The notes under the pieces: model-generated
Database searches by the model: none
Told to the model about the DNA's origin: nothing
What the model saw: only the letters and a program-made list of their open reading frames with translations
NCBI RefSeq assembly: GCF_004765785.1
Contig: NZ_SBIT01000015.1
Location: 124,001 to 188,000 of the forward strand
DNA from: Halorussus ruber
GTDB taxonomy: Archaea; Halobacteriota; Halobacteria; Halobacteriales; Haladaptataceae
Length of the DNA: 64,000 nt
Direction: 5' to 3'
Position numbers and translations under genes: made by a program
Shown: piece by piece, positions 2,433 to 52,786 of the stretch
Layout of the letters: every line of letters begins with the position of its first letter
Position numbering within the stretch: the stretch's first letter is position 1

Positions 2433-2862
2433 GACGCAAAATCTCTGTTTCCTCCGACGGTGTTTTCGGCGGCTTGTGACTAGCGAAAGCTGGCTGACCA
2501 ACCGCCAGCGAACGCTCAACTGACTAACTGCCAGCAGACGCTCGACTGAGAAACCGCTGGGTGGGATGAAGGGGCCGCCCGGTCGCGTGCAGTTTAGTCG
2601 CTGTGTAGGCTCTATTCGCGGCGGGCGGTGTCTCGCCGAGCGAAGCGAGGCGATGGCTCGGAAGACGCGGTTTGTCTTCCGGTGCGGAGAGCCGCGAATA
2701 TCCTGCACAGCGACCGCGACCGGGCGGGGGCTTCAATAAAACATTACAACGAGGATTCTGTGGGCTACAGTCGTATTCGCACTGAAGAGACCGAACTAAA
2801 TTTCTTAGAAAATCAAAATCGTGTACCAAATACCGAAACTCCCGAAAACCCAGATTTTCACT
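2433..2862. other. Intergenic region carrying repeat family 1, copy 1
   Basis: This 430-base gap lies between the convergent DUF354 and GT2 genes. The first 130 bases contain a run of short related phrases (ACGCTCAACTGAC, ACGCTCGACTGAG) leading into the structured repeat at 2563-2740. The last ~100 bases are AT-rich. No credible protein-coding frame is present. Confidence 0.7.
2563..2740 (+). repeat. Structured dispersed repeat, family 1 copy 1
   Basis: Outer arms GATGAAGGGGCCGCCCGGTC and GACCGGGCGGGGGCTTCAAT pair except at a short GGGC/CCCC internal loop. Inside, GTCGCTGTGTAGG pairs with CCTGCACAGCGAC, then CTCTATTCGCGGC pairs with GCCGCGAATAT. The apical part holds a hairpin GGAAGAC/GTCTTCC. 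Related elements lie at 9305-9531, 52541-52662 and 35708-35842. The phrase GACGCTCGACTGAGAAACCG just before it (2538-2557) also recurs near the 9.5 kb and 52.5 kb copies. It is non-coding as far as can be seen; whether it is an RNA gene or a DNA-level mobile element is open. Confidence 0.8.
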
Positions 2863-9078: not shown

Positions 9079-9197
9079 ATGCTGGTCGGATAGCTACAGG
9101 TGTGTGATTGTTTGTTAGAAGTGGTTTTGTATCGCTTTACGGTGATGAATTATTTGTTAAAGTCGTCTCTGTGTTGCTCTATCATGATATGGCTGCG

Positions 9198-9251
9198 AGC
9201 GTGAACAACAGAATCGAGGTGAGGTATTTTTGAAGTCCCTGCCCGGTCGCT
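9198..9251 (-). repeat. Extra partial copy of the family 1 end
   Basis: GAACAACAGAATCGAGGTG followed by TTGAAGTCCCTGCCCGGTCGC repeats, with changes, the sequence at 9270-9335 that forms the end of family 1 copy 2. It is a truncated or decayed duplicate of the 3' end lying just outside the full copy. Confidence 0.6.
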
Positions 9252-9304
9252 CTGTCTTCGTGTAATTGTGAGTGCGAACAGCAGAATCGTGGTGGTATTG
9301 TCTT

Positions 9305-9531
9305 CTTGAAGCCCCCGCCCGGTCACGGTCGCTGAGCGACATATCGGCGCTCTCCGCACCGGAAGACAAACCGCGTCTTCCGAGCCATCATCGTCCGAAA
9401 ATCGGAGATTTTCGTGATCACGAAAGGCTTCGCCTTTCGAACGACCTCACTTCGTTCGGTGAGACACCGCCTGCGCCGATAGGGGTCGCTCAGACGACTA
9501 AACTGCACGCGACCGGGCGGCCCCTTCATCC
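9305..9531 (-). repeat. Structured dispersed repeat, family 1 copy 2
   Basis: Read on the minus strand it begins GATGAAGGGGCCGCCCGGTC and ends GACCGGGCGGGGGCTTCAAG. The inner stem is GTCTGAGCGAC with GTCGCTCAG, then CCCTATCGGCGC with GCGCCGATAT. The apical region holds a chain of four small hairpins (CTCAC/GTGAG, CGAAAGGC/GCCTTTCG, CGAAAATC/GATTTTCG, GGAAGAC/GTCTTCC). It directly follows family 2 copy A in the same orientation; the two form one composite at 9305-9690. Confidence 0.82.
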
Positions 9532-9587
9532 ACCCGTGGCGGTTTCTCGGTCGAGCGTCTGTCGGTGGAAAGCGAAACCGAGCGCGT

Positions 9588-9690
9588 GCCTCACGCCTCC
9601 CCAACCTCCTGCGGTCCTCGGCCTTCGGCCTGCGGTCCTCGTCCCTCGCACGGATGGGTGCGAGATGAACTCGCGCCAGCGCGCGCCGAA
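9588..9690 (-). repeat. Structured dispersed repeat, family 2 copy A
   Basis: On the minus strand: CGCGCTGGCGCGAG, loop, CTCGCACC, then GTGCGAGGGACGAGG, a hairpin of GAGGACCGC phrases and the core AGGAGGTTGGGGAGGCGTGA. A linker (GCTTTCCACCGACAGACGCT) joins it to family 1 copy 2. Confidence 0.75.
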
Positions 9691-35609: not shown

Positions 35610-35707
35610 GTGCGGGCGTTGGGACTATCGATTCAAGTGTGTTGCTGTCTATCGGTCGTGTTTAGATGGGATTGAGGTGCGGGGTCGAATAGAGAGAGTC
35701 GAATCTC

Positions 35708-35842
35708 GAAAGCCCTCGCGCGGTTCGCGGTCGCTCAGCGACATATCCTCGGTTCGTCTCGCTACGCTCGACTCACCTTCGGATAGGGGTCGGCTGAGAC
35801 GACCATGGCCTTCGGCCGCGAACTGCGCTCGCCCTTTCAGTC
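35708..35842 (-). repeat. Structured dispersed repeat, family 1 copy 4 (divergent)
   Basis: On the minus strand: CTGAAAGGGCGAGCGCAGTT, GTCGTCTCAGCCGACCCCTA, a short apical region, GGATATGTCGCTGAGCGACC, then GCGAACCGCGCGAGGGCTTT. It shares with the other copies the CCCTAT/ATATG internal loop and the GTCG...CGAC stem but has different outer arms. It fills the gap between the DUF420 gene and nuoN; the rest of that gap shows nothing else. Confidence 0.7.
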
Positions 35843-35962
35843 CGCCAGGGCGTTGTCTGTTTCACCGAGCGACGCGCGTGGCTGGCGACGCGTCGCTGGC
35901 TGTTGGAATTGGCGCGTCCGAAAAAACGAAACCGCGAAAGCCAAGGTCGGTTATCGAGCGAT

Positions 35963-52298: not shown

Positions 52299-52386
52299 CG
52301 CGTTTGCTGACTCTGCGTGTGCGTATAAATTCCGAGGATACTCGGAGGCGGTGGTCGCGTTGCGAACCCGTGCTGTTTTCTTTCCC

Positions 52387-52505
52387 GGCGCGCGCTGGCG
52401 CGACCCCGTGTCGCGCCCTCATTCGCGCGAGGGACGAACGACCGCGCTCTGCGCGGGAGTGAGGAGGTTGGGGAGGCGTGAGGCACTCGCTCGGCGAGGC
52501 TTTCC
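52387..52505 (+). repeat. Structured dispersed repeat, family 2 copy D
   Basis: GGCGCGCGCTGGCGCGAC, loop CCCGT, GTCGCGCC, then CGCGCGAGGGACGAACGACC, a hairpin CGCGC/GCGCG, and the core GAGTGAGGAGGTTGGGGAGG. It leads straight into family 1 copy 3 through GCTTTCCATCGGCGAACGCC. Confidence 0.8.
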
Positions 52506-52540
52506 ATCGGCGAACGCCCGACCGGGAAACCGACAGGGAG

Positions 52541-52662
52541 GGATGAAGGGACCGCCCGGTCGCGTTCATTGTAGTCGCTCCTCGACTCTTATCCGCGACG
52601 GGCGGTGCCGAGAGGAGCGGATATGTCGAGGAGCGACCGCGAGCGGGCGGGGGCTTCAAGAG
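52541..52662 (+). repeat. Structured dispersed repeat, family 1 copy 3
   Basis: Outer arms GGATGAAGGGACCGCCCGGT and AGCGGGCGGGGGCTTCAAG. The inner stem GTCGCTCCTCGAC pairs perfectly with GTCGAGGAGCGAC, then CTTATCCGC with GCGGATAT. It is the shortest copy, with a minimal apical loop. With family 2 copy D it forms a composite (52387-52662) between the phosphorylase and deaminase genes. Confidence 0.84.
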
Positions 52663-52786
52663 GTGTTCACGACCCTCATTGCCGTTGCGTCGGTAACGGT
52701 GCAAAGCGACCGAGCGTGGGCTTCGGAAGCCAACCCCGTGACGCCCCTACCGTCCACGTTCGCAGGTCTCGACACCCTCGACGCCC

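Follow-up and report, generated by a model that had tools for sequence, protein, structure and literature searches.

An initial annotation of 64,000 nucleotides of Halorussus ruber DNA (contig NZ_SBIT01000015.1, positions 124,001 to 188,000; the whole stretch is referred to herein as the window) suggested that four dispersed segments keep one architecture while the bases of their main stems differ, and took this as a sign of selection on a folded molecule, either RNA or cruciform DNA. The segments were proposed to represent either an undescribed haloarchaeal RNA family or a non-autonomous mobile element. The locus raises the question of how the two arms of such a repeat can change and stay paired, and the candidates are selection on an RNA, recognition of a single DNA strand, and copying between arms and between copies. 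The copies lie between genes, fold, covary, are inherited at orthologous sites, share cores and accept nested hairpins. We lean, slightly, towards reading them as a high-copy, non-coding, non-autonomous foldback repeat that acts at the DNA level, with a possible secondary use in mRNA.

All four places proved to be real copies when the sequence and fold were inspected at each: copy 1 (c1) at 2563 to 2740 on the plus strand, copy 2 (c2) at 9305 to 9531 on the minus strand, copy 4 (c4) at 35708 to 35842 on the minus strand, and copy 3 (c3) at 52541 to 52662 on the plus strand. The main-stem sequences quoted for them are accurate. The C-rich-TAT / ATAT internal loop said to adjoin the stem is present and can be refined to a bulge of 3 or 4 nt facing a single T; the unit exceeds the limits originally given, having 27-bp iterons at its 5' end and a conserved tail at its 3' end. 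When other genomic copies were compared with the window by BLAST, the repeats extended over 2482-2776, 9186-9623, 35703-35872 and 52481-52735, and nothing else of weight was found. In the orientation listed above, each copy is predicted to form one long, imperfect hairpin. A covariance model reported copy 3 (E = 5.2e-15) and copy 4 (E = 2.2e-8) and did not report copies 1 and 2, which carry nested inserts.

Copy 1, with a predicted folding energy of -107.5 kcal/mol, is preceded on the plus strand by three iterons of about 27 bp (GCGAACGCTCGACTGAC-AAC-CGC; 2482-2564), and similarity to other copies starts at 2482. Its left side consists of the left arm (2565-2587), the clamp and S1 (2597-2609), the bulge CTC (2610-2612) and TAT-S2 (2613-2622), and its right side of S2' (2691-2700), the bulged T (2701), S1' and clamp (2702-2714) and the right arm (2715-2735). 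The 3' tail follows at 2736-2776 on the plus strand, as placed by the tail consensus and by the end of similarity to other copies at about 2776. Comparison with copies having an empty loop places a nested double hairpin at 2631-2684 (plus strand) in the apical loop (GGGCGGTG^CGGAGAG). Nested double hairpins of this kind (also in L014, L015, L018 and L166) contain a conserved loop, GAGCGAAGCGAG + GGAAGACGCGGTTTGTCTTCC. Copy 2 has the same hairpin as the other copies with a larger hairpin nest in its apical loop, and such nesting accounts for the difference in length between copies 1 and 2. Its 3' tail (9186-9304, minus strand) consists of two tandem units, the second having its own right-arm end. 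Copy 3 has no nested insert (clamp and S1 at 52574-52586; S1' and clamp at 52625-52637), and its tail (52663-52735, plus strand) contains a second, degenerate right-end unit with CGACCGAGCGTGGGCTTC at 52707. Copy 4 is of type 2, with diverged outer arms (GAAAGGGCGAGC.../...GCGAGGGCTTTC) around an unchanged S1/bulge/S2 core; this outer-arm type (GAAAGGGCGAG.../...GCGAGGGCTTTC) is frequent in Halosimplex. A second repeat, module A, recognized in the sequence, counted in the genomes and delimited by eye, lies 5' of copy 2 (9545-9685, minus strand; GCGCGCTGGCGCG ... GCGAGGGACGAG ... GGTTGGGGAGGCGTGAGGC) and 5' of copy 3 (52384-52510, plus strand).

For the anatomy of the family, 90 copies from the window genome (G000) were set beside roughly 90 from its relatives. 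From the 5' end, the outer part of a unit contains the iterons, GGGTGG, an end stem, a palindromic arm, a small hairpin on the left side, and TGGTCG; the inner part contains the 9-bp S1, the bulge, TAT-S2-ATA and the apical loop, and the conserved tail closes the unit at the 3' end. Of 83 copies, 35 have at least two iterons, which recur with a period of about 27 bp; at random places the share is 0.4%. The end stem is GAAAG/CTTTC or TGAAG/CTTCA and is followed by G.G mismatches, while the palindromic arm is GCCCGGTCGCG/CGCGACCGGGC or one of several covarying types (e.g., GGTCGCTCGCG/CGCGAGCGACC). The bulge, CCC, CTC or CCAC opposite one T, is conserved across genera, as are the end mismatches. 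TAT/ATA beside it is nearly invariant and becomes TCT/AGA, with pairing intact, in L290 and L282 (G001 and G012). The apical loop is mostly GGGCGGTGCGGAGAG, at times CAACTACGTC or GCGGTTT, and is exchangeable. Both the apical loop and the left linker can hold nested hairpins of about 50 nt; at one orthologous site, a linker insert is cleanly seen in G002 and is lacking in G016. The right end can be tandemly repeated in the 3' tail in units of about 55-80 bp (9186-9304 of the window; L258, L261 and L276), and their number varies among orthologs: at a site between two genes resembling moeA, G000 has two of them and G003 a single one.

A covariance-model search of haloarchaeal genomes revealed a family far larger than four, with at least 134 copies in the window genome. 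The 24-base left arm alone matches that genome 115 times at up to 3 mismatches, and its reversed control 0 times, so chance is excluded. With a model of the core, copies were found in 17 of 18 Halorussus genomes, the counts being at least 134, 98, 95, 95, 81, 65, 61, 57, 50, 40, 36, 25, 24, 10, 10, 6, 1 and 0, of which the highest are lower bounds (up to 150 candidates per genome were scored). Across the order, 68 of 243 genomes have a match at E <= 1e-4, lone weak matches possibly being due to chance. Halosimplex, Haladaptatus (on a plasmid) and other haloarchaea have copies whose arms and loops are the same, and representative loci of G208, G052, G023 and G025 have the ends and loops of the Halorussus family. 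The loop pattern had no match in viral contigs; two bacterial matches to it (L217 and L221) lack arms and stems and were dismissed as chance.

The covariation around a constant architecture first noticed in four copies is massive in large alignments and far exceeds that of shuffles. Among 97 parsed cores, there are 39 distinct S1 and 45 distinct S2 sequences. Of the cells in two model-made alignments, of 79 and 89 copies, 95.7 and 95.6% are paired, and covariation reaches 0.467 and 0.453, respectively; shuffling lowers it to 0.14 and sliding the partners to 0.09 or less. These alignments were fitted to the structure, but the register of S1 is fixed and an independent parser agrees. The last pair of S1 is coupled to the fourth pair of S2 (85:4 vs. 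11:56; Fisher p = 3e-26), a link that lineage or structure might explain. Double transversions make up about two thirds of pair changes (7.9 units, against 4.1 units of double transitions), and wobble pairs are rare, amounting to about 1.7% of S1 pairs. Distinct events in S1 show a weak asymmetry of G.T over A.C (25:13; one-sided p = 0.04), counts from covariance-model alignments having been set aside because the model favours wobble.

How both arms change together can be seen in part from the relatedness of the cores. For 55% of cores, the nearest core lies within the same genome, compared with 27% after labels are shuffled; the sample is uneven (78 of 159 cores are from G000), and the shuffle respects this unevenness. 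Several exact combinations of S1 and S2 recur inside one genome. Since whole cores are shared within a genome, both arms can change at once through copy-to-copy replacement with pairing kept, and whole cores appear, from their sequences, to have been swapped between copies of one genome. Replacement of whole cores between copies, or an arm being copied from its partner, suits the double transversions and the rarity of wobble more readily than does gradual change by way of wobble pairs. In L039 and L062 (both at 2824-2888), the cores are inverted relative to the outer arms, the expected outcome of recombination between S1 arms.

None of the 90 arm-bearing copies of the window genome lies inside a gene, 87 being between two genes and 3 at locus edges; genes were called with a simple codon-usage caller, and the window is 83% coding. 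That no transposase or coding frame is linked, as had been claimed, holds for the arm-bearing copies and neighbours examined. A search among the neighbours for a recurrent protein that might be a partner gave only housekeeping genes and orthologs, and the 90 copies include no autonomous one. The flank consensus, GGGTGG-GATGAAGG / CTTCAAGAA, has no promoter-like or terminator-like block. Among 160 placed copies, 66 are sense and co-directional with the flanking genes, 27 antisense, 39 between divergent and 28 between convergent genes. Each of two independent sets shows the sense excess (p = 0.010 and 0.004); it is unexplained by a pure DNA role, and keeps a role in mRNA open for copies in operons.

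Orthologous sites show both retention and loss. The element at the c1 site is absent from all nine syntenic congeners. At an ABC-transporter site, the element is present in 15 of 17 species, with position and orientation unchanged; the 15 orthologs have 12 different S1 sequences (differing on average at 3.3 of 9 positions), and 132 of 135 pairs are Watson-Crick, with no G.T. Conserved sites lie between co-directional, operon-like genes (ABC permease/ATPase; branched-chain ABC ATPases), and retention in 15 species at one site suggests a benefit to the host, beyond spread alone. At the moeA-like site, seven species have the element and others a type-2 copy or module A; none of the three was found there in G007, G009 and G010. 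This intergenic region (L276-L290, 15 species) is shared by type-1, type-2 and module A sequences, species differing in which of the three they have; its type-2 element, GAAAGCCCTCGCGCG ... GAGCGCGCTCGCCCTTTCAGTCCGCC, is inverted and resembles window copy 4.

Two of the 18 genomes, G007 with one copy and G009 with none, are bare at both sites examined. Trees of the flanking genes nest both within carrier clades, some branches being weakly supported, and the trees are most simply read as two wholesale losses. Module A (GCGCGCTGGCGCG ... GCGAGGGAYGAG ... CGGYTGGGGAGGCGTGTGGC; L002, L258, L276 and others) is a dispersed repeat often found 5' of the hairpin element. It has 51-88 matches in each of four carriers, but 2 in G007 and 1 in G009, which is near the control. 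The joint loss of the two repeats may point to one shared factor, and suggests that the repeats depend on some cellular trans-acting factor, apparently an undescribed one.

Whether RNA or DNA is the folded molecule can be judged from the pairing of copies in different contexts. A structured RNA, lying mostly between cistrons in operon mRNAs, would set mRNA processing or stability, and its stems would be free to vary as long as they paired. The sense excess (66:27) in two independent sets, the conserved sites within operon-like co-directional gene pairs and the conserved internal loops are as expected of such an RNA, as is the excess of G.T over A.C in S1 (25:13), which suggests that one particular strand may fold and fits RNA and single-strand DNA alike. 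However, antisense, divergent and convergent copies are equally well paired: mean stem mismatches are 0.48 for sense co-directional copies and 0.57 for the other contexts pooled (p = 0.27), and the share of perfect copies is similar across transcription contexts. If transcripts of neighbouring genes were the molecule under selection, antisense and divergent copies would be expected to decay; no decay was seen, which argues against RNA. Moreover, wobble accounts for about 1.7% of S1 pairs and for none of the 135 pairs at the ABC-transporter site, which is low for an RNA stem with such turnover, and the flanks have neither a promoter-like nor a terminator-like block. An Rfam match, which would have spoken against an undescribed family, was absent in both strict and lax searches: at the gathering score, the window yielded two tRNAs only, and at lax settings, one copy matched sR60 at chance level (E = 0.65). 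This absence likewise disfavours a structured RNA. Two motifs were set aside on their general features, the bulge-helix-bulge of archaeal splicing and the kink-turn; the element has only one 3-nt bulge opposite a single T, and the adjoining pairs are Watson-Crick. We therefore hold a structured RNA to be unlikely, albeit a serious candidate. The structured, covarying family of the initial annotation is real, but covariation alone does not prove selection on RNA; of the two identities proposed there, the non-autonomous repeat fits better, and the family appears to be undescribed. A caution follows for repeat families in general: however strong, covariation does not prove an RNA gene.

Three further accounts were considered. 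Movement as a MITE, with the outer arms serving as terminal repeats for an ordinary DDE transposase that acts in trans, agrees with the inverted repeats of the arms and with the gene-free copies, but the arms themselves covary and are of several types, and iterons and tail lie outside them. At c1, where the divergence of the congeners blurs the exact ends of the element, no target duplication could be delimited. Among the neighbours of the copies no recurrent transposase was seen, and paired stems persisting at one site in 15 species are unexpected for dead MITEs. We regard the account as improbable. About as improbable is an origin as a REP/REPIN- or PATE-like repeat, mobilized by a Y1 transposase of the IS200/IS605 kind that would take the folded single strand as its substrate. 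High copy number, intergenic location, palindromy and strand polarity agree with it, haloarchaea have PATEs (PMC3119063), bacteria have REPs with RAYTs (PMC3733652), and G000 has six full Y1 genes. Nevertheless, at the Pfam cut-off a Y1_Tnp match is absent from 8 of the 18 genomes, six of which (G001, G003, G004, G005, G008 and G011) carry 25-95 copies, so that the route would require a recent loss of the gene in all six, and no arm of the element is found at the seven Y1 loci of G000. Pairing could finally arise without selection, by mutational templating from arm to arm alone, the repeats being inert debris; few wobbles, double transversions and cores inverted between the arms are what this would leave. 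Pure templating should, however, erase the bulge, with its mismatch, and the G.G loop at the end as well, both of which are conserved across genera, and the two bare relatives suggest that inert debris gets removed, so that we regard this as very improbable.

For the DNA-level foldback repeat that we favour, the following course of events may be envisaged. A protein would recognize the folded strand through its fixed bulge, mismatches and ends, so that the letters of the stem would be irrelevant. Copies would spread or overwrite each other as whole hairpins, by conversion or hairpin-templated copying, which would keep the arms complementary during sequence turnover. The repeats would last while the trans-acting factor is present and be deleted after its loss. 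Some copies in operons would also be transcribed and might act on mRNA like the REP elements of Escherichia coli, as a secondary role. More tentatively, an undescribed trans-acting protein is predicted to read the folded strand by its bulges and to maintain and rewrite at least 100 copies of at least two families, its loss leading to the purge in G007 and G009; we consider this protein possible rather than likely. These two genomes represent a natural experiment: genes absent there and common to all carriers should include the factor. The question of the factor is relevant to dispersed palindromes without a dedicated transposase in general, and stem turnover with intact pairing, in a hundred paralogs and 15 orthologs, provides an unusually clean case for how palindromes keep their pairing.

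No description of the Halorussus hairpin family was found in the open-access literature searched. In the attC sites of integrons, the structure and extra-helical bases are kept while the stem varies, and a protein recognizes the folded single strand; the Halorussus copies likewise keep a structure over a varying stem, but are dispersed and single, with no cassette arrays seen. The BOX elements of pneumococci, modular, intergenic and foldable with repeated sub-units, are similar by description only and belong to another domain of life. Bacterial REPs of the GTAG and CGTC families have sub-families with alternative complementary stem residues, and CGTC REPs have no dedicated transposase (PMC3733652). 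The present family resembles REP/BIME/REPIN elements in being dispersed, intergenic, palindromic and high in copy number, and CGTC REPs in lacking a dedicated transposase. It differs in being archaeal, in its multi-helix fold of about 120 nt with a conserved bulge and mismatches, in its iterons and nested hairpins, in showing no GTAG/CGTC tag in the flank consensus, and in having no Y1 gene in six carriers. In PATEs of Haloquadratum walsbyi, the palindromes lie near the termini and resemble those of IS605 elements (PMC3119063); they too are haloarchaeal, gene-free, palindrome-bearing and abundant, whereas the Halorussus unit is wholly one hairpin with no relation to IS605 found. SMR-A of Haloquadratum is short, is inserted in the palindromes of other repeats, and has no known mover (PMC3119063); it is the nested apical-loop hairpins, not their host element, that resemble it in behaviour. 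Dispersed palindromes are thus a kind already known, including some whose stems come in alternative complementary forms (PMC3733652), and what appears to be new here is the multi-helix fold, the retention at orthologous sites with turnover of the stem, and the co-loss with a second repeat.
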